From a virus, in the IMG/VR virus record IMGVR_UViG_3300046820_000902, positions 1 through 21,414 of that record: a DNA stretch of 21,414 bases. One strand, written 5' to 3'. The notes beneath the pieces were generated by a model, which was given only the letters and a program-made list of their open reading frames with translations, had not been told where the DNA came from and did no database searches. The first letter of the stretch is position 1. Each line of letters opens with the position of its first letter. This document shows, one piece after another, positions 7,749-16,093 of the stretch. The position numbers and the translations under genes are program-made.

Positions 7749-7962
7749 CGAGCATTTCCTCCTCGTCATATCCAAACGGATCGTATCCCTTCAGCATGGC
7801 ATCTACTGCCACCATGATTGGCCCAGTGATACGCACCTTGCCAGCTTCCATCTTGCGAATGGTTGTGCCGCCATTGTCAGGCGATAGGCGCAGCGCGTCA
7901 GCCATCTCGTTGACGCTATAGCCCATATGGTGACGGGCAAGCTTTAGTTTATCTGGTGTCAT
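7735..7962 (-). CDS. XRE-type helix-turn-helix protein, 75 aa
   Basis: Begins MTPDKLKLARHHMGYSVNEM and continues with the pattern of a Cro/C1-type HTH: scaffold helix, MADALRLS positioning helix, then TTIRKMEAGKVRI as recognition and stabilising helices. The tail (DPFGYDEEEMLDGGY) is acidic. This architecture occurs in phage-borne regulators and in helix-turn-helix subunits found in alphaproteobacterial phage operons. It could act on the operon promoters near 9230 or on a host promoter. Its ATG overlaps the end of the DnaA-like gene by 4 bases (ATGA). Confidence 0.85.
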   Translation of the reverse strand: MTPDKLKLARHHMGYSVNEMADALRLSPDNGGTTIRKMEAGKVRITGPIMVAVDAMLKGYDPFGYDEEEMLDGGY

Positions 7963-8207
7963 GCTTCTTCCATCTCTGCCGCTGCTGCCACCTTCTGCAA
8001 TGCGTGAACAATGGTAGTGTGATCGCGGTTCATAATCCGTCCTATTTCTGTGGTTGAATAGCCTTTTCCTCTAAGCCATACAATGCATTTGCGCCTTACT
8101 GCGACTAGTGCTTTCAGTTTGCTCTTGCCTAGAATGTCTTCCAGTGTGTAACCATATAACTCTGCGATAGCATCAATCTCTGCAAAGTTCTTTTCCCTTG
8201 GTGTCAT
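7959..8207 (-). CDS. Stand-alone DnaA domain-IV-like protein, 82 aa
   Basis: The C-terminal half carries STTEIGRIMNRDHTTIVHAL followed by QKV. This matches the signature of the origin-binding helix-turn-helix of DnaA (Bac_DnaA_C), in which the RDHTTxxHA motif contacts the DnaA box. The N-terminal half (MTPREKNFAEIDAIAELYGY) has no AAA+ ATPase, so it binds DNA but should not itself open an origin. Similar short proteins occur in phages of Alphaproteobacteria. Likely roles are binding DnaA-box-like sites on the phage genome or competing with host DnaA. It is ATGA-coupled to the genes on both sides. Confidence 0.88.
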   Translation of the reverse strand: MTPREKNFAEIDAIAELYGYTLEDILGKSKLKALVAVRRKCIVWLRGKGYSTTEIGRIMNRDHTTIVHALQKVAAAAEMEEA

Positions 8208-8435: not shown

Positions 8436-8729
8436 TTACGCCTCCTTTATAAAAATTCCGTCAACCATCTTGCCTTTGCGGTCTTTAATTTCCTGCCAGG
8501 CGTTATCGATGCAATCTTCAATCATCATGCCATTCTGTGCAGCCATGATAGTTAGCACAACGACCATATCGCCAATGGCATCCGCAAATTCTATGTCGTT
8601 CTTTTTAGCGATAGCGTTAGCCAGCTCTCCGGCTTCCTCGATCAGTTTAACGAATTGGCTCTTTACATCGCTGCCTCTGATTAGGTTGCGGTCTTCAGCC
8701 CAGCGACGAATAAGTTCTGCGTAAAACAT
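8436..8729 (-). CDS. MazG-like nucleotide pyrophosphohydrolase, 97 aa
   Basis: An all-alpha NTP pyrophosphatase fold. The metal-binding signature is the pair KLIEEAGELANAIAKKN (about 28-44, with the E-E-x-x-E motif) and EFADAIGDMVVVLTIMA (about 46-63, with E-x-x-D-x-x-x-D). Phage MazG-type enzymes hydrolyse (d)NTPs or (p)ppGpp-like nucleotides, clearing nucleotides or relieving host stringency. Which substrate applies cannot be read here. It overlaps the upstream membrane-protein gene as TAATG and sits with DUF3310 in the same operon. Confidence 0.9.
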   Translation of the reverse strand: MFYAELIRRWAEDRNLIRGSDVKSQFVKLIEEAGELANAIAKKNDIEFADAIGDMVVVLTIMAAQNGMMIEDCIDNAWQEIKDRKGKMVDGIFIKEA

Positions 8730-8929
8730 TAGATTTTGTCCTTTTTGATAAAGCGGCCTGTTTTGGGATCGCGCAGTGAAGCTGTGCGCTTGTAAAATAA
8801 AAATTCGGCTGCGTCATGCGTCCACATGGCTTGCCAAAATTGGCGGTCTCGATGTGTTAGCCACAAGAGATATAGCGTTATGGCTTCCAGAGCCAGTAGC
8901 CCAATTATTGCGATTTTATATTGGTTCAT
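8729..8929 (-). CDS. Small single-pass membrane protein, 66 aa
   Basis: Residues about 5-24 (KIAIIGLLALEAITLYLLWL) form one transmembrane helix with a short N-terminal Lys-bearing tail. The remaining 40 residues are polar, aromatic (QFWQAMW) and end in a basic RDPKTGRFIKKDKI segment. The GGAGG five bases before the ATG supports the start. A small hairpin (8948-8960) lies just upstream. No family is recognised. A host-membrane effector is possible, but nothing in the sequence proves it. Confidence 0.75.
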   Translation of the reverse strand: MNQYKIAIIGLLALEAITLYLLWLTHRDRQFWQAMWTHDAAEFLFYKRTASLRDPKTGRFIKKDKI

Positions 8930-8947
8930 TTAATCCTCCATATTAAC

Positions 8948-8960
8948 GAGGCGTAGCCCC
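8948..8960 (-). other. Leader hairpin before the 66-aa membrane protein
   Basis: On the minus strand GGGGC, TAC, GCCTC form a 5-bp stem (one G-U) with a 3-base loop, followed after 11 bases by GGAGG and the ATG at 8929. It is the same size and position as the hairpins in the three promoter-leader modules at 9188, 9351 and 15877, but has no promoter of its own because it lies between two genes. Confidence 0.5.
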
Positions 8961-8963
8961 TGG

Positions 8964-9167
8964 TTATGCGAACGTGAACTGGCGTTCGTGAAAGCAATGA
9001 GCGAACCAGCGAGGAGCTGGATTACTGCTAATCAAGTCAGCGAAGAATGCATATTCTGCGTTCCCCTTACTATCGAAGCGAAAGCAACGATCCGAAGGTT
9101 GGCGCTCATCAGCGTCAGTGACTTCGATAAAAACGCCATCAGCGAGTGTGGAAAACTTTACTAGCAT
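8964..9167 (-). CDS. Unknown small protein, 67 aa; first gene of the leftward operon
   Basis: No family recognised. The sequence has alternating hydrophobic and charged residues (LVKFSTLADGVFIEVTDADE) suggesting a beta-rich fold, then DRCFRFDSKGNAEYAFFADL and a His/Phe-rich end. Its ATG follows AAGGAG with an 8-base spacer, downstream of a promoter-leader module. As first gene of the leftward block it should be among the earliest expressed on that strand. Confidence 0.75.
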   Translation of the reverse strand: MLVKFSTLADGVFIEVTDADERQPSDRCFRFDSKGNAEYAFFADLISSNPAPRWFAHCFHERQFTFA

Positions 9168-9175
9168 TAAACTTA

Positions 9176-9244
9176 CTCCTTAAAGGCGAGGCATTGCCTC
9201 CGTTGCTGTTGCACCCTTCTAAAATTGGTCATTTTATATGTCAA
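9176..9244 (-). promoter_or_regulatory. Promoter and leader module C, leftward
   Basis: On the minus strand: A-tract (TTGAAAAAAGTG), -35 TTGACA (9239-9244), 17-base spacer, -10 TAGAAG (9216-9221). Next come the initial transcribed sequence GCAACAGCAAC (9202-9212), a hairpin GAGGC/ATT/GCCTC (9188-9200) and AAGGAG (9176-9181), then the ATG at 9167. The -35 is consensus sigma-70 and the -10 matches 4 of 6. It is one of three related modules in the window and drives the block down towards the packaging genes. Confidence 0.75.
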
Positions 9245-9291
9245 ACACTTTTTTCAATAAGATGCATTTTTATTTAATATGAAAAAAGCTC

Positions 9292-9382
9292 TTGACATTA
9301 ATTTTTGCATCTGCTATATAATGTGCATCAGCAAGGAACACTTTGTTGATGGGGCATCGCCCCGCTCTTTGACAATTTGGAG
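9292..9382 (+). promoter_or_regulatory. Promoter and leader module A, rightward
   Basis: A-tract ATATGAAAAAAGC, -35 TTGACA (9292-9297), then TATATA (9315-9320, 17-base spacer) overlapping a perfect TATAAT (9317-9322, 19-base spacer). The leader starts near GCATCAGCAAGG (9325-9336) and contains a hairpin GGGGC/ATC/GCCCC (9351-9363) and GGAG (9379-9382) before the ATG at 9389. It is about 50 bases from the leftward promoter, so the two form a divergent control region. Confidence 0.8.
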
Positions 9383-9388
9383 ATTGAA

Positions 9389-9625
9389 ATGAATTTAAAA
9401 GACCTACGCGCACGCGCTGCGACCATTGGTATTCGGATTGAGGCTGAACGCTTTGATATTCCAGTAGACGGAAACTTTTGGGGATACTGGCTAATTGACG
9501 AAAAGACCAATGATGGCGTTTGGGATGATGAAAATTATTGCTCAAGCCACAAAGAATTGAGTGATTCGCTTCGTAAGCTTGAATTTGAACGCGGTGTTAG
9601 ATTCAAAGCCATGATGCCATTCTAG
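9389..9625 (+). CDS. Unknown small acidic protein, 78 aa, own transcription unit
   Basis: No family recognised. Begins MNLKDLRARAATIGIRIEAE, followed by DGNFWGYWLIDEKTND near residues 27-42, and has a helical C-terminal part (HKELSDSLRKLEFERGV). The ORF opens at a TTG four codons earlier (9377), but that codon overlaps the GGAG ribosome site, so the ATG at 9389 is the start. It is flanked by a strong promoter module and a strong terminator, so it is a monocistronic, probably early, highly expressed gene. Proteins in that position often act on the host; the sequence does not show how. Confidence 0.8.
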   Translation: MNLKDLRARAATIGIRIEAERFDIPVDGNFWGYWLIDEKTNDGVWDDENYCSSHKELSDSLRKLEFERGVRFKAMMPF

Positions 9626-9631
9626 TAAAAG

Positions 9632-9667
9632 ATGGCCCTGCCTTAATCGGTGGGGCCATTTTTATTT
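9632..9667 (+). terminator. Strong Rho-independent terminator
   Basis: ATGGCCCTGCC pairs with GGTGGGGCCAT around the 6-base loop TTAATC, giving an 11-bp stem with two wobble pairs, followed by TTTTTATTT. It starts 7 bases after the stop of the 78-residue gene. Its T tract overlaps the stop codon of the convergent leftward gene ending at 9662. Confidence 0.85.
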
Positions 9668-9835
9668 CTGCTGTTTTGCGTGCGCGATAGCTTCAAGCGC
9701 CCAGGCTTCAGGAGCGCCTACATAGCGCCCTTTGGCCCAGTGCTTGCGTATGTCATCTATCGAAAGCTTCCCAGCTTGGTATCGGATCAGATCGCACATC
9801 AAGTTCGTTGCGGCGCTTCCGTCAGTCTTTGCCAA
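9662..9835 (-). CDS. Unknown small protein, about 57 aa (TTG start) or 45 aa
   Basis: The reading frame continues past the stop of the 184-codon-frame gene. From a TTG at 9835 it gives a protein starting MAKTDGSAATNLMCDLIRYQ, then AGKLSIDDIRKHWAKGRYVG and a helical end with a Gln-Gln-Lys terminus. The first ATG is at 9799 (45 aa). TTG is favoured because GGAG lies 11 bases upstream and the frame reads well before the ATG, but this is not certain. The mix of charged and aromatic residues looks protein-like. It overlaps the upstream gene by 14 bases and converges on the terminator at 9632. No family recognised. Confidence 0.6.
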   Translation of the reverse strand: MAKTDGSAATNLMCDLIRYQAGKLSIDDIRKHWAKGRYVGAPEAWALEAIAHAKQQK

Positions 9836-10346
9836 TTTGTAGATTGCTCCGTAACTCCTGCAATTCTTCGGCTGTCACATATTCCTGTGGCGGAACGTAA
9901 TCCCGCTTGTGGATTTGCAACAGATATTGCGCTCGATTAATCCTGCGTCTGCGATTGTAGCCTTCATCCTGAACCACCGAATCTATTTCGGCTGGCGTTG
10001 GCATAAACTTGCAAGTGCGAAGAAGTTTCAGGAACGCGCTGCGTAGATCGACTAGCGGATAAATGCGAAGCGTCATCCAGTATAGCTCCAATCGTGCCGC
10101 TTCTTCGTCAACGCTGCGCTTTTGGGTTGCTGTGGCGAGAGACAGTTTGGCGATCATCACTTCAACCTGTTCGCGCTCTGGCATAGGTGGCTTTGGTGCG
10201 TCCACGAACTGCTGAAGAATCTCCGCAGACTTAGGCCCAATCGTCGGAATGTCGTTCCCCATTAGTAGCTCGTCGAGCTTGGCTGGCAAGAACGGCTCTG
10301 ACCATTGGGCTGGTTGGTTCTGTTGCGTGGTTGCTATTTCCTGCAT
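9822..10346 (-). CDS. Probable replication accessory / helicase-loader-like protein, 174 aa
   Basis: Follows the replication protein gene. The middle and C-terminal part is helical, and contains RLELYWMTLRIYPLVDLRSA then a CKFMPTPAEID motif near residues 130-140. A (K)F-hydrophobic-PTPAEI motif is typical of small phage helicase loaders and replisome organisers of the lambda P/G40P-partner sort, and an O-then-P gene order is common. The remainder (RRRRINRAQYLLQIHKRDYV) is basic. The assignment is inference from motif and context. The start at 10346 has AAAGG upstream and overlaps the previous gene by 116 bases; an internal ATG at 10262 would cut the overlap to 32. Confidence 0.6.
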   Translation of the reverse strand: MQEIATTQQNQPAQWSEPFLPAKLDELLMGNDIPTIGPKSAEILQQFVDAPKPPMPEREQVEVMIAKLSLATATQKRSVDEEAARLELYWMTLRIYPLVDLRSAFLKLLRTCKFMPTPAEIDSVVQDEGYNRRRRINRAQYLLQIHKRDYVPPQEYVTAEELQELRSNLQIGKD

Positions 10347-10929
10347 TTGTCGCGCCTTTCGGTTCGTATATATCAAGCCAGCCGTTGATTGTCGAACGAT
10401 CCAGCAATTCGTTTATGTCATGTCCTGCCAAGTGCAAGGCTTCCAGCTTCTTATAAGCCCTGGCCTTTGCTCGATCAGTTAATGGGCGTTTGCGTTGCTT
10501 CCGCATCTCAACCCAACCCTTCCAAGCATCTATCGGCAACCAAGTGGGATAGCCCTCGATTATATACTTGGTGTTTAATTGATGTGTCTTTGATGTATTG
10601 GGTGCATCTGATGCACGGGTCTCATGCATTTGATGCACGGGTGGGATGTCTTTGGTGCACGGGTGCATCTGGTGCATGGGTATCTGAACCCAATACTTAT
10701 TGCCTTTCCCGATCACTTCTTCGCGGCGAATAAATTGCATTTCCTCCAGCGATCTAATCGCCAGTTGAACAGCCCGTTTTTTCAACGATGATTTTTTTGC
10801 TACGCGCTCAATCGAAGGCCAGCATAAGCCATCGTCGTTTGCCCAATCCGCTAAAGACAGAAGAACGAGCTTTTGCGTGGATGATAGGTCTTCCCTATCC
10901 CATACTGCTGTCATTAATTTGATGCTCAT
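10231..10929 (-). CDS. Phage replication initiator-like protein with HTH domain, 232 aa
   Basis: N-terminal residues 1-85 form a winged helix of the HTH_36 type: LSSTQKLVLLSLADWANDDG, CWPSIERVAKKSSLKKRAVQ, then RRxEVIGKGNKYWV. A polar linker with His/Met/Pro repeats (about 88-118) follows. A second domain holds LPIDAWKGWVEMRKQRKRPL and INELLDRSTINGWLDIYEPK, typical of phage O-like or DnaD-like replication proteins. It would bind the phage origin and recruit the host helicase via the downstream product. The C-terminus (residues 195-232) overlaps the next gene in another frame. The ATG overlaps a 15-codon ORF as ATGA. Confidence 0.85.
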   Translation of the reverse strand: MSIKLMTAVWDREDLSSTQKLVLLSLADWANDDGLCWPSIERVAKKSSLKKRAVQLAIRSLEEMQFIRREEVIGKGNKYWVQIPMHQMHPCTKDIPPVHQMHETRASDAPNTSKTHQLNTKYIIEGYPTWLPIDAWKGWVEMRKQRKRPLTDRAKARAYKKLEALHLAGHDINELLDRSTINGWLDIYEPKGATNAGNSNHATEPTSPMVRAVLASQARRATNGERHSDDWA

Positions 10930-10973
10930 GACGCAATGCCTTGCGTGATGGTTCTGTGGCGTGTATTACTCAT
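10926..10973 (-). CDS. Possible 15-aa leader peptide coupled to the replication gene
   Basis: The ORF MSNTRHRTITQGIAS ends in TGA overlapping the ATG of the replication gene (ATGA), with AAAGG about 10 bases before its start. Such an arrangement can couple or regulate translation of the downstream gene. Short ORFs arise by chance, so the evidence is only the overlap and the ribosome site; no homology can be claimed. Confidence 0.35.
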   Translation of the reverse strand: MSNTRHRTITQGIAS

Positions 10974-11006
10974 TACAGCGATGCCTTTCTCTGCTAGGCG
11001 TTGTTA

Positions 11007-11050
11007 GAGCGGGTCGAGTGCCTTTCCGTTCCTTTCGGCACTCCCCGCTC
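11007..11050. other. Long 14-bp stem-loop upstream of the replication gene
   Basis: GAGCGGG and GAGTGCC (plus strand, separated by a TC bulge) pair with GGCACTC and CCCGCTC around a 14-base pyrimidine-rich loop (plus strand). No T tract follows on either strand, so it is not an ordinary terminator. It lies about 80 bases before the replication gene start. It could be a leader structure controlling translation, a single-strand initiation or origin hairpin, or part of an RNA gene. Confidence 0.6.
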
Positions 11051-11101
11051 GCTCTTACTTAACTCAAAACAAGCATTTGTAAAAGCGTTTTTGTGGCAGC
11101 G

Positions 11102-11130
11102 TTGACCGACGCCCTGTTTTAGCGTATCTG
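11102..11130 (+). promoter_or_regulatory. Possible promoter of a short plus-strand RNA
   Basis: TTGACC (11102-11107), 17-base spacer, TATCTG (11125-11130): -35 matches 5 of 6 and -10 matches 4 of 6 positions of sigma-70 consensus. It points to a terminator only about 30 bases downstream, so any product would be an RNA of roughly 50 bases. That RNA would include CCTCCTTA, complementary to the ribosome-site-like sequence on the opposite strand. Weak on its own; plausible because the terminator has no other upstream plus-strand gene. Confidence 0.35.
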
Positions 11131-11161
11131 GCGCGGATTGGTTCCTCCTTACCAAACATAC

Positions 11162-11188
11162 TGGGTGGCTTCGGTCACCCATTTTTTT
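11162..11188 (+). terminator. Rho-independent terminator, plus strand
   Basis: TGGGTG, loop GCTTCGGT, CACCCA followed by seven T. The T tract belongs to the plus strand, where no protein gene precedes it, and it overlaps the stop codon of the leftward DUF1064 gene (11187). It may terminate a short plus-strand RNA, or stop rightward read-through from the 9300 region from entering the DUF1064/HTH genes. On the minus strand the same hairpin directly follows DUF1064. Confidence 0.7.
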
Positions 11189-11531
11189 ATTTGGTTTCCC
11201 GCAACGTGTGATCGGGGAACAGTGCAATAAAGACAGCGCGGCGCAAAGGCCAATCCCTAACGATTACGCCCTTCACATCTTCGGTGATTTTGATACCGCA
11301 TTCGGTATACTCAAAGTCCGATTTATAACCAACGCGCCTACCATTAGCGTGCTTTAGCTGGCGACCATTGATAACGAACCAGTATTGCGGAGCCACTTTT
11401 AATTCGCTGATCGCGCCAGCCGCTTGCAATGCGTGCAGTTCGTTGCACCTGATAGCCTCCCGCTTGCTGTCATGTGTATGCCCAGCGTTGCAGTTTGCTT
11501 TAACGGCTCGGTATTTGCCGAAGCGCCTCAC
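11187..11531 (-). CDS. DUF1064 family protein, probable PD-(D/E)XK nuclease, 114 aa
   Basis: The start (FGKYRAVKANCNAGHTHDSK, then REAIRCNELHALQAAG) and the core YKSDFEYTECG with KITEDVKGV match DUF1064, a phage protein family regarded as having the PD-(D/E)XK nuclease fold. The likely active-site set is Glu25, Asp72, and Asp85 with Lys87 in the E-D-V-K strand. It could resolve recombination or replication intermediates, taking the place that RusA holds in other phages. It overlaps the upstream HTH gene by 4 bases, and its stop lies within the T tract of the terminator at 11162. Confidence 0.88.
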   Translation of the reverse strand: MRRFGKYRAVKANCNAGHTHDSKREAIRCNELHALQAAGAISELKVAPQYWFVINGRQLKHANGRRVGYKSDFEYTECGIKITEDVKGVIVRDWPLRRAVFIALFPDHTLRETK

Positions 11532-11734
11532 CAGTCAACCTTTTGAGATACTAAGCGATCCAGTGCGTCATTGGCTGCAAGCCATGCGCCTAGCTGCGGT
11601 TCAGTGCGTCCGCTTTTCCAGTTCGATAGCGTGACACGGGTAATGCCAGCTTCAATGGCTATCTTGCAAGCCCTGATTTTATGCGTCTTTGCGTAGCTAA
11701 AAAAGTTCGCAATTTCATTCTCTACCTGGGTCAT
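11528..11734 (-). CDS. Small XRE/Cro-like DNA-binding protein, 68 aa
   Basis: Residues about 8-55 read as a Cro/C1-type HTH: NFFSYAKTHKIRACKIAIEA, GITRVTLSNWKSGRTEP, then a short C-terminal helix ending DRLVSQKVDW. The recognition helix is RVTLSNWKSG. At this size it resembles Cro more than a cleavable repressor, as there is no peptidase domain. It faces the ERF gene across a short promoter region, the classic position of a regulator controlling divergent early genes. The ORF opens with TTG at 11740; the ATG at 11734 follows GAAAG and is preferred. Confidence 0.85.
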   Translation of the reverse strand: MTQVENEIANFFSYAKTHKIRACKIAIEAGITRVTLSNWKSGRTEPQLGAWLAANDALDRLVSQKVDW

Positions 11735-11747
11735 ATTCAACTTTCTT

Positions 11748-11825: not shown

Positions 11826-12386
11826 ATGCCAGTGCATAAAAAACTTAACGAAGCGCGGATTACCTTCCACGCATTACCGCTCAAAAAGTCCGGCCACAAC
11901 ACGTTCGCTGGTTACAAATACTTCGAGCTTTCCGACTTTGTGATTCCAGCCCTTCGCATATTTAACGATGTCGGATTGTGCGCGGTTATTAGCTTTTCGG
12001 AAACCACAGCATCGATGCATATCGTCGATGTTGAAGATGGCTCGATGGTTATTATTCACAGCCCAATGGGATCAGCAAATCTAAAAGGCTGTCACGAAAT
12101 TCAGAACATTGGCGCTTGCGAGACATATTCCACCCGCTACCTCTGGACAGCAGCCCTTTGCATTGTCGAGCATGATGCTTTGGATGCTACCACAGGCAAG
12201 AGCGAATCAGCACCACGCGAAAAGTTTATCAGCGACGAACAGTTTGAGGTATTAGTGGATTTGGTTCACATCACAAAAACAGATATGGCTTTGCTCTGCA
12301 AGCATTACAAAATCAGCGCACTTAAAGAATTGCAGGAAAGCCGCTTCGATGCGGTTAAGGCTGCATTAGAAAAGAAGCTGGCATGA
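11826..12386 (+). CDS. erf: ERF-family single-strand annealing protein, 186 aa
   Basis: A recombinase that anneals complementary single strands during phage recombination and genome circularisation. Family features: FAGYKYFELSDFVIPALRIF near residues 27-46, a beta-rich middle, SPMGSANLKGCHEIQNIGAC at 79-98 and ETYSTRYLWTAALCIVEHDA at 99-118, ending with the family's Asp-rich DALDAT. Residues 130-186 form a separate helical C-terminal domain. The ATG follows AAAGGAG. The YqaJ exonuclease two genes downstream supplies the single strands, making a two-component Red-like system. It is the first gene of the rightward block. Confidence 0.9.
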   Translation: MPVHKKLNEARITFHALPLKKSGHNTFAGYKYFELSDFVIPALRIFNDVGLCAVISFSETTASMHIVDVEDGSMVIIHSPMGSANLKGCHEIQNIGACETYSTRYLWTAALCIVEHDALDATTGKSESAPREKFISDEQFEVLVDLVHITKTDMALLCKHYKISALKELQESRFDAVKAALEKKLA

Positions 12387-12514
12387 GAGAGGTTTTAGTC
12401 GCAGCCATTCTTGGCGCAATGTATGCAATGCTGTTCCTACTGTTTCTGATTGTGGGCGAATTGAGAACACAAACCGAAATCATGCAGCCAACAGCATTGA
12501 TTGAAGGAAACTAA
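12383..12514 (+). CDS. Small membrane peptide, 43 aa
   Basis: ATGA-coupled to the end of the ERF gene. It codes for one hydrophobic helix (VLVAAILGAMYAMLFLLFLI, about residues 4-23) followed by a short polar tail with a Glu and an Arg after the membrane. No family is known to me. Coupled start, intact frame and clear membrane character support a real gene. It lies between two recombination genes, so its role is not explained by context. Confidence 0.65.
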   Translation: MREVLVAAILGAMYAMLFLLFLIVGELRTQTEIMQPTALIEGN

Positions 12515-12517
12515 ACC

Positions 12518-13153
12518 ATGACAGACGCAGCTATTATCCAACGCAGCCCTGAATGGTATGCGGCACGTTGTGGAAGCCTTGGCGCTTCCCAACTGGCAGA
12601 CGCCCTAGCCAAGACCAAATCTGGCTGGGGAGCGTCACGCGCCAATCTTCGTGCAACGCTTGTGGTCGAAAGGCTCACAGGCCAGCAGGAGGAAGGCTTT
12701 GTCCGCAGTGCAGCAATGCAATGGGGAATTGACAAAGAAGAAGAAGCCAGAATCGCCTATAGCTTCATGACAGGCCATGAAGTGACTGAGGTGGGCCTAT
12801 ATAAGCATCCAACCATTATCGGCACTCACGCCAGCCCTGACGGGCTTGTGGGAGATGATGGCTGCATCGAGATTAAATGCCCTAACTCTGCCACGCATAT
12901 TGAAACTCTGAAAAGCAATCAGGTTGCCCATAAGTATTTGCTTCAGATGCAATGGCAGATGGCTTGCGCTGATAGGCAATGGTGCGACTTCGTGAGCTTC
13001 GATCCGCGAATGCCAGATCATCTAATGCTTTACATTCAGCGGGTGCAGCGCGACAACGATATGTTGGCGATTTTGGAAACAGAGGTCGCCGCATTTCTGG
13101 CAGAAGTCGAGAAAGACGTAGAAGCATTATCTGAGCTAGGAATCCCATCATGA
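12518..13153 (+). CDS. YqaJ-type viral exonuclease, 211 aa
   Basis: Phage recombination exonuclease of the lambda Exo/YqaJ family. It would degrade one strand of duplex ends to give 3' tails for the ERF protein. The N-terminus QRSPEWYAARCGSLGASQLA (about 8-27) is diagnostic. The active site is visible as Glu74-76 region (DKEEEARIA), HASPDGLVGDD with Asp108, and CIEIKCP with Glu118 and Lys120. The following YLLQMQWQMA is the usual helix with Gln residues. Length is normal for the family. It starts 3 bases after the stop of the membrane peptide. Confidence 0.94.
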   Translation: MTDAAIIQRSPEWYAARCGSLGASQLADALAKTKSGWGASRANLRATLVVERLTGQQEEGFVRSAAMQWGIDKEEEARIAYSFMTGHEVTEVGLYKHPTIIGTHASPDGLVGDDGCIEIKCPNSATHIETLKSNQVAHKYLLQMQWQMACADRQWCDFVSFDPRMPDHLMLYIQRVQRDNDMLAILETEVAAFLAEVEKDVEALSELGIPS

Positions 13154-13371
13154 ATCAGAACGAACGAGTTTTCGATCACTTGCTTACAGTTGGGCCAATC
13201 CGTCCAATGACAGCATTGAATGACCTTGGCATCTATCGCCTTGCATCGCGGATTAATGATTTGCGAAAGGCTGGGCATAAAATCAAAACCAAAAAGATTG
13301 AGGTGGTCAATCGCTGGGGAGAATCATCTTACGTTGCTGAGTATAGCTTGGAACTTGAAGATGCTTCCTAA
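13150..13371 (+). CDS. HTH-domain protein (HTH_55-like), 73 aa
   Basis: Contains NERVFDHLLTVGPIRPMTAL then NDLGIYRLASRINDLRKAGH, a winged-helix pattern typical of a short phage helix-turn-helix family with the motif ALNDLGIYRLASRI. The last 25 residues form the wing (KTKKIEVVNRWGESSYVAEY). It starts on the ATGA overlap with the exonuclease stop. Role is likely transcriptional or DNA-structural control inside the recombination operon; the target is unknown. Confidence 0.85.
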   Translation: MNQNERVFDHLLTVGPIRPMTALNDLGIYRLASRINDLRKAGHKIKTKKIEVVNRWGESSYVAEYSLELEDAS

Positions 13372-13699
13372 TCGCATTGCCAGGAAGCCAAAGCGTTCAA
13401 CGCGCTGGCGCTCACAAGGCCATCTGAACTTCATTCGATCATTCCATTGCAGCATCAATGGTTGCCAGGATATGCCAATCGAATGCGCTCATGTAAGACT
13501 TGGCAGCGGAGCAGGGATGGGGCAGAAGCCAGACGATTGGCGAGTTGTGCCATTATGCCGTCAACATCATAATGAGCAGCATACAGTCGGGGAGCAGACG
13601 TTCTGGAAAGGCATCGATGTAGAAGCTTTGATTGAAGCATTCTGCAAAGCCAGCCCGAAGGCGCGTGAGATAGCCGAAAAGCAAAAGGAAGTGCAGTAA
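13361..13699 (+). CDS. HNH-type nuclease (DUF968/Ref-like), 112 aa
   Basis: A small zinc-binding HNH nuclease: FHCSINGCQDMPIECAHVRL supplies a Cys pair, a third Cys and the first His, and VPLCRQHHNEQHTVGEQTFW supplies the rest, near residues 26-85. Glycine-rich GSGAGMGQKPDDWRV lies between. This resembles nucleases encoded beside phage recombination genes (Ref/DUF968-type) that nick DNA during repair. The ATG at 13361 lies inside the previous gene (11-base overlap); the longer frame upstream is not used. It ends TAATG into the next gene. Confidence 0.88.
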   Translation: MLPNRIARKPKRSTRWRSQGHLNFIRSFHCSINGCQDMPIECAHVRLGSGAGMGQKPDDWRVVPLCRQHHNEQHTVGEQTFWKGIDVEALIEAFCKASPKAREIAEKQKEVQ

Positions 13700-13905
13700 T
13701 GAATACAGCAGAACAAGAGCGTGCCGCTATTGTCGCGTATTTGCGAAAGTGCCAGGAAACTATGAAAGACTTGGCAGAGCACTATGGCACAACCAAAGGT
13801 AAATATAATTTTCACGAGCAATCATGCCGCTATGCAGCAGATGCCATAGAGGAAGGGGAGCACCTTAACCCCATCCTGTTTAGCGAAATAAGTCCGCCAG
13901 CATGA
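13699..13905 (+). CDS. Unknown small protein, 68 aa
   Basis: No family recognised. The sequence is mostly helical (EQERAAIVAYLRKCQETMKD, then EQSCRYAADAIEEGEH) with two Cys, and ends in a short proline tail. Tight overlaps on both sides, TAATG with the nuclease gene and ATGA with ninB, mark it as a genuine member of the recombination operon rather than a chance frame. Confidence 0.8.
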   Translation: MNTAEQERAAIVAYLRKCQETMKDLAEHYGTTKGKYNFHEQSCRYAADAIEEGEHLNPILFSEISPPA

Positions 13906-14282
13906 CGCAAACAGTTTGGCTTCGCGGTGAATATCAAAGGCGATTGGCGCACCAGCTTATCGACAAGGCTCCACAGGATGCAGTTGTTAAGATCAGCCAA
14001 GCCAAACGCTCAGATGACCAGAATGCAAAGATGTGGGCCATGCTGTCAGACATTAGTCGAGCAGCGCCAGAGGAAAGGCGGCACATACCAGAAGTTTGGA
14101 AATGTATTTTCATGGCGGCATTGGGGCATGAAGTGATGTTCACAATGGGCCTTAACGATCAGCCGTTTCCAATAGGATTCAAAACATCAAAATTAACCAA
14201 GCCTCAGATGTCAGATTTGATTGAATTTATCTATGCGTATGGGGCGCAACATAATGTTGCTTGGAGTGAAAATTCCATGTAA
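13902..14282 (+). CDS. ninB: NinB-type recombination mediator, 126 aa
   Basis: NinB (lambda Orf) binds single-stranded DNA and SSB and loads the annealing protein. The diagnostic stretch is KRSDDQNAKMWAMLSDIS (about 35-52), followed by a WKCIFMAALGHEV segment, PFPIGFKTSKLTKPQMSDLI and FIYAYGAQHNVAWSE near the C-terminus. The length is typical. It sits in the same operon as ERF, the exonuclease and SSB, all partners in the recombination route. The ATG overlaps the previous stop (ATGA). Confidence 0.93.
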   Translation: MTQTVWLRGEYQRRLAHQLIDKAPQDAVVKISQAKRSDDQNAKMWAMLSDISRAAPEERRHIPEVWKCIFMAALGHEVMFTMGLNDQPFPIGFKTSKLTKPQMSDLIEFIYAYGAQHNVAWSENSM

Positions 14283-14288
14283 TGTTGC

Positions 14289-14322
14289 GGAGGCAACCAG
14301 TGAACCAACACCAGTTGCCCCC
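14289..14322 (+). other. Stem-loop between ninB and the HNH/AP2 gene
   Basis: GGAGGCAAC pairs with GTTGCCCCC (8 of 9), with inner GTG/CAC pairs beyond a symmetrical CA/CA loop and a 6-base terminal loop. No T tract follows, so it is not a standard terminator. It lies about 15-20 bases before the AAAGGAG of the next gene, at the edge of what looks like an inserted endonuclease gene. Confidence 0.55.
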
Positions 14323-14350
14323 TAATCATTAGCGAAAAAGGAGTTTCGCC

Positions 14351-14887
14351 ATGACTACATCGAATTTACCAGACCCATCATATCTTCGTCAACGTTTGAG
14401 ATATTGTCCAGAAACAGGAAAACTGTTTTGGCTTGATAACGCTGCCTTACCCCAAAAATGGAGGACGCGATGGGCCAACAAAGAAGCGTTTTTTTATATC
14501 TGTAATCGCGGATATCTGACAGGCACAATCAATGGCCGTAAACTTTTGGCTCATAGAGTTGTTTGGGCCATAGTTCATAATCAATGGCCCAGCGGAGATA
14601 TGGATCATATTGACCATTGCCGAACTAACAATAAAATTGAAAATTTACGAATAGTTTCAAATTGTGAAAATAGACGAAATCAATCTATGGCTAGCAATAA
14701 TACAACTGGAGCAACTGGAGTTTATTGGTATCCTAGATGCAAAAAATGGTTGGCGCAAATACAAGTAAATAAAAAGCAAATACATTTAGGTTTGTTTTCG
14801 GATTTCAATGATGCTGTTAAAATTAGAAAGGCAGCAGAGCGGCATTATAACTTTCATGAAAATCACGGATTAATATCTTGTAGATAA
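14351..14887 (+). CDS. HNH homing-type endonuclease with AP2-like domain, 178 aa
   Basis: The HNH core is LLAHRVVWAIVHNQWPSGDM, DHIDHCRTNNKIENLR and a following VSNCENRRNQS segment (residues 65-113): His68, His86/His89 and Asn94/Asn98 form the usual metal site. Residues 118-166 (GATGVYWYPRCKKWLAQIQV, then LGLFSDFNDAVKIRKAA) match the AP2/integrase-type DNA-binding module common in phage homing endonucleases. Base composition is clearly more A/T-rich than its neighbours, and it splits two genes of the operon, so it is probably a mobile insertion. The start follows AAAGGAG. Confidence 0.9.
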   Translation: MTTSNLPDPSYLRQRLRYCPETGKLFWLDNAALPQKWRTRWANKEAFFYICNRGYLTGTINGRKLLAHRVVWAIVHNQWPSGDMDHIDHCRTNNKIENLRIVSNCENRRNQSMASNNTTGATGVYWYPRCKKWLAQIQVNKKQIHLGLFSDFNDAVKIRKAAERHYNFHENHGLISCR

Positions 14888-14897
14888 GGAAAAAAAT

Positions 14898-15137
14898 ATG
14901 AGTGAACCACATAGCGAACAGTTACGCCTTTTGATTGAGCGCATCGAGCGCATGAACGAAGAAAAGAAAGGCGTTCAAGAGGACATCCGCGATGTCTATA
15001 ACGAAGCCAAAGCACATGGATACGACACTAAAATTATTCGCGCAGTAATCCGCCTTCGCGCAATGGAAACAAATGAGCGCCAAGAATATCAAGCTGTGCT
15101 TGACACATATATGATAGCCCTTGGTCTTGGTCTTTGA
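14898..15137 (+). CDS. GapR-like (DUF2312) nucleoid-associated protein homologue, 79 aa
   Basis: Begins SEPHSEQLRLLIERIERMNE, followed by an EEKKGVQEDIRDVYNEAK helix, GYDTKIIRAVIRLR and a short C-terminal helix: the complete DUF2312 domain. In Caulobacter, GapR binds overtwisted DNA ahead of replication forks and stimulates topoisomerases. A phage copy would mimic that host factor on phage DNA or titrate it. Length is near normal for the family. It lies between the HNH insertion and ssb, so it is part of the replication/recombination operon. It also supports an alphaproteobacterial host. Confidence 0.92.
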   Translation: MSEPHSEQLRLLIERIERMNEEKKGVQEDIRDVYNEAKAHGYDTKIIRAVIRLRAMETNERQEYQAVLDTYMIALGLGL

Positions 15138-15148
15138 AAGGAACCATC

Positions 15149-15529
15149 ATGCAAAATATCACAATATCAGGAAACGTAGGCAAAGATGCAGAGTTGCGCG
15201 ACACCCGCGATAGCAAGGTTTTGAGCTTCAATGTTGGCGTTAAGAACGGATTCGGCAAAGATGCTGGCAGCGTTTGGTATCGGTGCAGCTTATGGGGCAA
15301 GGCAGCAGAGGTGTTTGCTGGCAGTCTCAAGAAAGGCACTAAGGTGTTTGTCTCTGGCGAACTGACGCACGATGAATATGAAGGCAAGCCGCAATTCAAT
15401 GTGCGGGTTGGCAGCATTGATACAGCGCCGCGATCAGAAGCTGGTGGAAGTGCAGCGCAGTCAGATGCATCTAGTCAGAATCAGCATACTACGTTTGATG
15501 ATGATTTGGAGGATTCTGTTCCGTTTTAG
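15149..15529 (+). CDS. ssb: Single-stranded DNA-binding protein, 126 aa
   Basis: The OB fold spans about residues 1-95: MQNITISGNVGKDAELRDTR, then LSFNVGVKN, VWYRCSLWGKAAEVFAGSL and KGTKVFVSGELTHDEYEGKP. A short Ser/Gln/Ala linker precedes an acidic tip (FDDDLEDSVPF) whose terminal D-x-V-P-F resembles the protein-docking end of bacterial SSB. It is shorter than most bacterial SSBs, as usual for phages. The ORF opens at TTG (15134), but the ATG at 15149 has AAAGGA at the right distance. Confidence 0.95.
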   Translation: MQNITISGNVGKDAELRDTRDSKVLSFNVGVKNGFGKDAGSVWYRCSLWGKAAEVFAGSLKKGTKVFVSGELTHDEYEGKPQFNVRVGSIDTAPRSEAGGSAAQSDASSQNQHTTFDDDLEDSVPF

Positions 15530-15539
15530 GATAATGGTA

Positions 15540-15770
15540 ATGCTAACAAAAACACGCCCAGAATTACCAACGCGCTCCAGGAATATTCCGCCACCATCTG
15601 AATATCTGGAGCATCGCTACAGGCAAAACAACGAAGCGATTGCGGAGGGATCGGCAGCATTGTTGAAAGCGCAGCTAAAGGCTGGGCATCATACGCTGAC
15701 ACAGGAAAGCTTGAAGGCAGTTGTCAGAAAATACAAATGGCAACTCTGCTTACAACCTACGTTATTCTAA
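15540..15770 (+). CDS. Unknown small basic protein, 76 aa
   Basis: No family recognised. It starts MLTKTRPELPTRSRNIPPPS, has EYLEHRYRQNNEAIAEGSAA next, and a basic helical end (LTQESLKAVVRKYKWQLCLQ). The frame opens far upstream inside ssb; the ATG at 15540 is chosen because AGGA (15528-15531) sits 8 bases before it, whereas the ATG at 15534 is only two bases away. It is the last gene of the rightward recombination block, ending 5 bases before a strong terminator. Confidence 0.7.
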   Translation: MLTKTRPELPTRSRNIPPPSEYLEHRYRQNNEAIAEGSAALLKAQLKAGHHTLTQESLKAVVRKYKWQLCLQPTLF

Positions 15771-15775
15771 GCCAG

Positions 15776-15812: not shown

Positions 15813-15832
15813 GCCTAATATGAAAAAAACGC

Positions 15833-15902
15833 TTTACACATAAAAAAGCCATTTTTATAAGAGGGCATCAGCAACAGGGGCCATGCCCCGCCAATACGGA
15901 GG
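15833..15902 (+). promoter_or_regulatory. Promoter and leader module B, rightward
   Basis: A-tract ATATGAAAAAAACGC, -35 TTTACA (15833-15838), exactly 17-base spacer, -10 TATAAG (15856-15861), each matching 5 of 6 consensus positions. The initial transcribed sequence is GCATCAGCAAC (15865-15875), then hairpin GGGGC/CAT/GCCCC (15877-15889) and GGAGG (15898-15902) six bases before the ATG. It is the closest relative of module A at 9292, and drives the five-gene cluster. Confidence 0.8.
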
Positions 15903-15907
15903 AAGTT

Positions 15908-16093
15908 ATGGTAACTGATAATCTAACCGACGCAGAGCGGGTTCAGCGCCGCATAGAATTTTACAGGGAAGTCGCAAAAGGACTTGCTGAAAGGCTCAAG
16001 ACTTATCCCCTGCAAGAAGATGTATCTACGCCGCACCCAGACGATTACGATGGCGGACGCTTTGATTACCTAACTTCACGAGGTGTAAAATGA
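15908..16093 (+). CDS. Unknown small acidic protein, 61 aa
   Basis: First gene of the cluster. Begins MVTDNLTDAERVQRRIEFYR, continues as a charged helix (KGLAERLKTYPLQED), and has an acidic loop (PHPDDYDGGRFDYL) before a short end. No family recognised. Promoter module B and GGAGG immediately precede the ATG, so strong expression is likely. The stop overlaps the next start as ATGA. Confidence 0.75.
   Translation: MVTDNLTDAERVQRRIEFYREVAKGLAERLKTYPLQEDVSTPHPDDYDGGRFDYLTSRGVK

Follow-up and report, generated by a model that had tools for sequence, protein, structure and literature searches.

The stretch of DNA that was analysed (the window) is a 21.4-kb IMG/VR virus record of 21,414 nucleotides, encoding P22-like coat, portal and terminase genes. 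Its early region comprises two divergent operons. The leftward operon (9662–11740, minus strand) carries genes for an HTH protein (11528), a DUF1064 protein (11187) and a RepO-like protein (10231) together with genes 9822 and 9662, and ends at a position designated slot A. The rightward operon (11826–15771, plus strand) carries ERF, YqaJ, NinB, SSB-like and small genes and ends at slot C. Slots A and C are therefore the far (downstream) ends of the two operons. Slot A lies between the end of the leftward operon and MazG-like, DnaA-C-terminal, HTH7735, methylase and terminase genes, slot C is flanked upstream by SSB and downstream by a convergent metallophosphoesterase-like gene, and slot B is divergent from, and back-to-back with, slot A. 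The same genome plan was found in related records of 28–38 kb; the related records are metagenomic and are mostly fragments. Each slot of the window holds a small gene, referred to as its cargo: 8964–9167 (minus strand) in slot A, with 67 amino acids, no Pfam or PHROG family and a cargo family of seven distinct copies; 9389–9625 (plus strand) in slot B, with 78 amino acids and no family; and 15908–16093 (plus strand) in slot C, with 61 amino acids, no family and single-linkage relatives in slot A elsewhere. An 82-amino-acid protein encoded at 7959–8207 (minus strand) consists of little more than a DnaA C-terminal DNA-binding domain (Bac_DnaA_C); its gene is conserved beside slot A and is sometimes the first cargo gene itself (L212).

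Module A (9165–9258, minus strand) extends from an A-tract through the start codon of the slot A gene. Its promoter has a −35 element TTGACA (9239–9244), a 17-nt spacer and a −10 element TAGAAG (9216–9221). The leader consists of GCAACAGCAA (9203–9212), the hairpin GAGGC-AAT-GCCTC (9188–9200) and GCC, followed by the Shine–Dalgarno (SD) sequence AAGGAG (9176–9181) and ATG (9165–9167). Module C (15819–15910, plus strand) likewise runs from an A-tract through the start codon of the slot C gene, with −35 TTTACA (15833–15838), a 17-nt spacer, −10 TATAAG (15856–15861), GCATCAGCAA (15865–15874), the hairpin GGGGC-CAT-GCCCC (15877–15889), GCC, the SD sequence GGAGG (15898–15902) and ATG (15908). The alignment of A with C is free of gaps from A-tract to SD. 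A fourth copy of the leader, without a promoter, was located at 8936–8970 (minus strand) before the second gene of the A operon (8729–8929); it consists of ATAACCA, the hairpin GGGGC-TAC-GCCTC (with one G-U pair), GTT and GGAGG. Scores with models R1 and R2, the E-values of which are rough, were 94.3 bits (E = 4e-17) and 37.0 bits for A, 104.1 bits (E = 5e-19) and 45.9 bits for C, and a weak 12.8 bits and 25.5 bits (E = 9e-4 in 520 kb) for the fourth copy. The hexamers of A (TTGACA-17-TAGAAG), C (TTTACA-17-TATAAG) and B (TTGACA-17-TATATA) are of the sigma-70 type with spacings within 16–18 nt, from which sigma-70-type promoter activity is predicted. The module promoters, whose hexamers are partly off-consensus, were not listed by a generic promoter scan of the window. 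An Rfam search of the window returned chance-level matches only, none of them on the modules, and no family at the gathering threshold. The whole-leader folding energy of single A and C leaders was no better than that of shuffles.

Module B (9278–9391, plus strand; A-tract through start codon 9389) occupies slot B and represents a distinct subtype, with an R1 score of 27 bits. Its −35 element TTGACA (9292–9297) can be combined with −10 TATATA (9315–9320, 17-nt spacer) or TATAAT (9317–9322, 19-nt spacer). The start-of-RNA sequence GCATCAGCAA (9325–9334) pairs with TTGTTGAT in a 9-bp stem 1 (9327–9335 with 9342–9350), and stem 2 is the common hairpin GGGGC-ATC-GCCCC (9351–9363; 9351–9355 with 9359–9363). 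When aligned with A and C, module B contains a 17-nt insert that carries the second arm of the extra stem. A boxA-like sequence, GCTCTTTGACA (9364–9374), precedes the SD sequence GGAG (9379–9382) by 4 nt, and ATG follows at 9389; the order in the leader is thus 9-bp stem, common hairpin and then CGCTCTTTGACAATT directly before SD. The predicted fold of the leader has an energy of −21.9 kcal/mol with both stems formed (z = −2.1 versus shuffles). Over 12 sequences both stems are 100% paired, with eight double-change cells compared with 1.8 in shuffles (0/500); the double changes are A-U to G-C, G-C to C-G and G-C to A-U, and G-U pairs are also present.

The boxA-like stretch agrees with the consensus GYTCTTTAANA, which may not be that of the host, at 10 of 11 positions. 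Position 8 is G in 12 of 12 B copies, where the consensus has A (PMC5725501). Within the related viral loci, GCTCTTT[AG]ACA occurs in B leaders only. In E. coli sequence GCTCTTTAACAATTT, which differs by one base, has about seven occurrences per genome, the number expected from the leaders of seven rRNA operons. The form with G at position 8, GCTCTTTGACAATTT, was found in four of 274 gammaproteobacterial genomes and in no case beside a detected rRNA gene; a role as a host rRNA signal was not borne out. The suhB leader of E. coli carries a boxA 6 nt before SD that represses translation via Nus factors (PMC5725501). With its boxA-like sequence at 4 nt, with one mismatch and confined to subtype B, module B may by analogy be regulated like suhB through host Nus factors. 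The presence of hairpin and boxA in one leader also recalls lambdoid nut sites, but nut has boxA and then the boxB hairpin, whereas in B the order is reversed, the boxA-like stretch following the hairpins, and the stretch is absent from A and C. A lambdoid nut site was rejected for B given this order and a 78-amino-acid cargo that is acidic (pI about 5) and belongs to no family, where nut would call for an N-like protein. A terminator-like hairpin with a T-run is located at 9628–9663, after the slot B gene and before the opposing early operon; this would matter should the boxA-like site of B have a role in antitermination.

The original prediction had described one promoter-leader module used three times in the window. 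All three modules are present and A and C are alike, but the −10 element of A is TAGAAG, that of B is not of the stated TATAAG type, and B is a subtype set apart by its second stem and boxA-like stretch. The three uses were confirmed; the promoter-less fourth leader had been missed.

Copies of the module were sought using an iterated weight matrix that spanned −54 to +10 only, with hairpin and SD excluded. In 2.1 Mb of sequence from related viruses this promoter-only profile identified 80 distinct copies, and the reversed-sequence control of 2.1 Mb contained no position scoring above zero. When trained without the window and without A/C orthologues, the profile gave scores of 84 bits for C, 57 bits for A and 4.7 bits for B; the next independent site in the window scored about −33 bits. 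A chance origin of the modules was rejected on the basis of these held-out scores and the empty control, so that the expectation of further copies in related phages and the claim that the modules are not due to chance were both upheld. Conservation across 70 copies covers the A-tract, both promoter hexamers (−35 and −10) and the start sequence, and the spacer and the region past +11 drift. A hairpin-leader pattern matched 14 viral contigs, with the same kind of promoter upstream in all 14, and a pattern of −10 plus start-of-RNA sequence matched 82 stretches, mostly true modules. Matches of a close pattern to bacterial contigs (41) were dismissed as chance, most of them being one conserved coding stretch.

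Comparison of the related records showed that the modules track the early region and not the capsid type. The early region and modules are shared by G010 and G014, which have unrelated terminase and portal genes, and by G011 and G018, which are also without relatives of the P22-like terminase and portal; G007 has P22-like capsid genes, a different early region and no module. Among 30 additional contigs, modules were present in 10 of the 10 having a close ERF homologue. No module was found in the stretches compared of the nearest annotated phages (MW202867, PfAn1, PBR31 and MW202475) or of the nearest phages by ERF (MW202484, MW202481 and OP947164). BLASTN searches of a phage collection gave no match for the C leader or for two leaders with other promoters, and weak AT-rich chance matches only for the B leader. 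Narrow searches with the leader model R2, using strict filters and no positive control, yielded nothing in 190 genomes around an alphaproteobacterium or in 274 genomes around a gammaproteobacterium. Literature searches on repeated phage leaders returned nothing relevant. One IMG/VR record of 68,853 bp (G015; L212 and L241) contains two sets of modules and two phage genomes that are related but differ in their coat genes, and is a tandem, a mixed infection or a misassembly.

A hairpin follows nearly every copy although it had been left unused in finding them; each distinct downstream sequence contains a stem of at least 4 bp, the first base of which is nearly always at +11 to +13. The most frequent stems were GGGGC/GCCCC (18), GGGA/TCCC (11) and GGGGA/TCCCC (6), and GAGGC/GCCTC, GGGGT/ACCCC, GGGAC/GTCCC and GGGAA/TTCCC were single cases. 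In alignment A4, which was aligned to the hairpin model (the bias-free test being the survey of stems behind promoter-found copies), 99.4% of cells were paired and 49 double-side changes were counted compared with 16.7 in shuffles; slid controls were far lower. The stems covary as proposed, since in neither the A4 nor the B alignment did any of 500 shuffles reach the observed score. The loops are variable across copies, which indicates that the structure is kept more than the loop sequence. The offset of the hairpin from the promoter shifts by 0–2 nt and its arms change in sequence. GCC is near-invariant behind the hairpin, and the start-of-RNA core CARCMA is conserved. An outer GGC/GCC stem was rejected because its 5′ side varies (TGC, TGG, AGT, CGC and GTT) and GCC is constant.

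The leader is separable from the promoter. The RBS motif GGAGACTGA occurs three times outside the modules, each time behind hairpin and GCC and before a second cargo gene. Further promoter-less leader copies were found, several of them behind a GGGGGCTTCGGCCCCC-type hairpin. Such UUCG hairpins stand ahead of many promoter-less leaders (L254:540–620, L258:1770–1850, L067:930–1015 and similar), so that the cistrons look bracketed by two hairpins. Scans using hairpin, GCCA and SD only located leaders behind other promoters, namely TAGGACC-type palindrome promoters (L338, L340, L344 and L342), GGGCCGGTGGCCC-type promoters (L325 and L329–L331) and, in L328/L337, a third promoter type that has changed in both slots A and C. 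In L338, L340, L344 and L342 a palindrome of the TAGGACC-N3-GGTCCTA type lies within the promoter spacer and is probably an operator for a repressor. From the promoter-less and other-promoter copies it follows that the conserved unit is a gene-start leader, which in most but not all cases is fused to the A-tract promoter, and that the hairpin is tied to the gene start and not to the RNA 5′ end. The view of promoter and leader as one unit is contradicted by these copies. As for the description of an early-gene leader rather than chance, chance is excluded, but ‘early’ is unproven because the modules end rather than head the early operons.

All 80 copies are located in the three fixed slots (51 in A, 21 in C and eight in B), and whole records have one minus-strand and one plus-strand copy, 5–7 kb apart and facing outwards. 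The first genes behind 79 copies encode proteins of 29–122 amino acids (median 78) and fall into 32 clusters by single linkage at E = 1e-3, the largest cluster being loose. The proposal of a shared control element before unrelated small genes is borne out by these repeated copies and cargo clusters. No matches to Pfam or PHROGs were obtained for the cargo representatives tested. Six clusters are present in two slots (A and C, or A and B). In pairwise comparisons of 14 slot A loci, upstream identity reached 95% over 700 nt and mostly ended at +40 to +54, which is the start codon; several pairs regained similarity near the end of the cargo.

Uncultured water phages thus reuse one promoter-leader part at fixed positions for dozens of unrelated tiny genes. 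We tentatively favour, as somewhat short of probable, a portable expression cassette for small accessory genes, with the leader as a standardised translation-start element, as the best explanation of the established anatomy, recurrence, covariation, slots, unrelated cargo, start-codon junction and separability of leader and promoter. Transcription from a sigma-70-type promoter, preceded by an A-tract, would yield a short mRNA. Its 5′ leader would consist of an unpaired stretch that is mostly rich in C and A (AUCAGCAA, AUCAACCA or a variant), a 4–5-bp hairpin with a loop of 3–4 nt, GCC, about four free bases and the SD sequence. The leader would act as a ribosome-standby-type element, its fixed geometry giving any docked small ORF an adequate start. 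The cassette promoter would re-initiate transcription at the ends of the early operons, and coding sequences would be exchanged cleanly from the start codon behind it. We infer the timing of expression and, for subtype B, extra control by host Nus factors, as its second stem and boxA-like sequence suggest. The leader probably functions in translation initiation, which is the likeliest role for a site right before SD that is found with and without the promoter in constant geometry. The predicted unpaired probability of SD was 0.47 compared with 0.49 in dinucleotide-shuffled leaders (65 leaders, p = 0.22). A simple insulator in which the hairpin exposes SD is therefore unsupported, and the translation claim rests on anatomy. 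A wider proposal, which we regard as somewhat doubtful, is a natural integrase-free cassette system in which small host-directed ORFs would be swapped from start to stop codon at fixed slots, even between slots, with the leader as both gene-start part and recombination homology.

The invariant GCC and CARCMA count against the favoured explanation, being more sequence-specific than a pure geometry element needs, and leave room for a binding protein. In a rather unlikely alternative, an RNA-binding protein of phage or host origin, or a modified RNA polymerase (cf. nut/put), would read CARCMA, hairpin and GCC and switch all cargo together. Besides these specific sequences, the boxA-like sequence in B, the constant association of the modules with one early region encoding the HTH protein (11528), and not with a capsid type, and the joint change of both slot promoters in L328/L337 are consistent with such a regulon. 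However, recognition usually involves the hairpin loop, which is not conserved here, and the leader occurs between genes without a promoter and behind unrelated promoters in phages lacking that early region. Within-genome homogenisation was absent except in the L328/L337 lineage (p = 0.25 without it), and no candidate RNA-binding protein was found. The least probable reading places recognition at the level of DNA, with CATCAGCAA at the transcription start as a repressor or activator site and the hairpin as incidental. Promoter and start sequence are indeed the most conserved part, and CATCAGCAA occurs twice in B as an inverted repeat, so that stem 1 can be read as two half-sites; nevertheless, both B stems contain G-U pairs and compensatory changes, which favour RNA, hairpin, GCC and SD recur without the promoter, and the hairpin moves by 0–2 nt relative to the promoter with arms that vary.

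It is improbable that the leader is an mRNA stability element, in which the 5′ hairpin would guard the transcript from RNase and the between-gene copies would guard processed mRNAs. In its favour, a small GC-rich hairpin is found within 8–12 nt of the probable 5′ end of the RNA, many promoter-less copies stand behind a UUCG-type hairpin, and stabilisation by a 5′ hairpin has been discussed as one possible effect of RiboJ (PMC6206723). The stem is merely 4–5 bp, however, and SD spacing and GCC, which stability does not require, are also conserved. About ten unpaired bases lie 5′ of the hairpin, and these should reduce protection of the 5′ end. Still less probable is a recombination docking site, the leader being kept as homology for exchange of cargo ORFs by an annealing recombinase. 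This alternative is compatible with the portable cassette and agrees with the position of the junctions, which lie at the start codon and for some pairs also close to the stop codon, with the sharing of a cargo family between slot A and either slot C or slot B, and with the ERF annealing protein and YqaJ exonuclease encoded next to the slots. Homology alone leaves the compensatory stem changes unexplained, and A and C leaders are no more alike within a genome than between genomes.

Among the closest known likenesses to the portable cassette is SAS/ESAS of cluster K mycobacteriophages, a short repeat directly before the start codons of many unrelated small non-structural genes (PMC3203893). SAS contains SD, about half of the copies have an inverted repeat just upstream, and a role in translation is suspected (PMC3203893). 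Both are thus repeated SD-containing elements before unrelated small genes. The SAS 13-mer, GGGATAGGAGCCC, is fixed, lies over the RBS and is accompanied by imperfect repeats of 17 bp, whereas the present leader has a covarying hairpin, GCC and a variable SD, is mostly coupled to a sigma-70 promoter and occupies three fixed slots; the two share no common sequence. GGGATAGGAGCCC at 3–7 bp before the start codon was absent from the module and promoter-less leader sequences examined. The leader geometry (free stretch, small hairpin, about seven free bases, SD) fits the definition of standby-site modules, in which a small hairpin flanked by free bases lies upstream of SD (PMC3936740), and the synthetic insulator RiboJ is similarly a standard 5′ part placed before different genes (PMC6206723). 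The present leader differs in being natural, in having an invariant GCC and a conserved start-of-RNA sequence, and in containing no ribozyme. The small accessory genes of this mosaic P22-like phage also resemble independently transcribed phage morons, but here many cargoes, at fixed slots, share one standard promoter-leader.

Accessory genes in phage early regions often encode factors for host takeover or anti-defence. The leader flags 32 families of very small, uncharacterised phage proteins whose genes stand behind a standard gene-start part, and it can serve as a search signature for further ones. With its covarying stems, exchangeable cargo, and copies that lack a promoter or follow a different one, this natural set of leaders constitutes a ready experiment on the effect on translation of a short hairpin ahead of SD. 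The junctions at start codons likewise open the mosaicism of phage genes to direct testing. The slot C proteins of L013 and the window (15908–16093) differ in their N-terminal parts and have the C-terminal end DDYDGGRFDYLTSRGV in common, which indicates that exchange junctions also lie inside genes.
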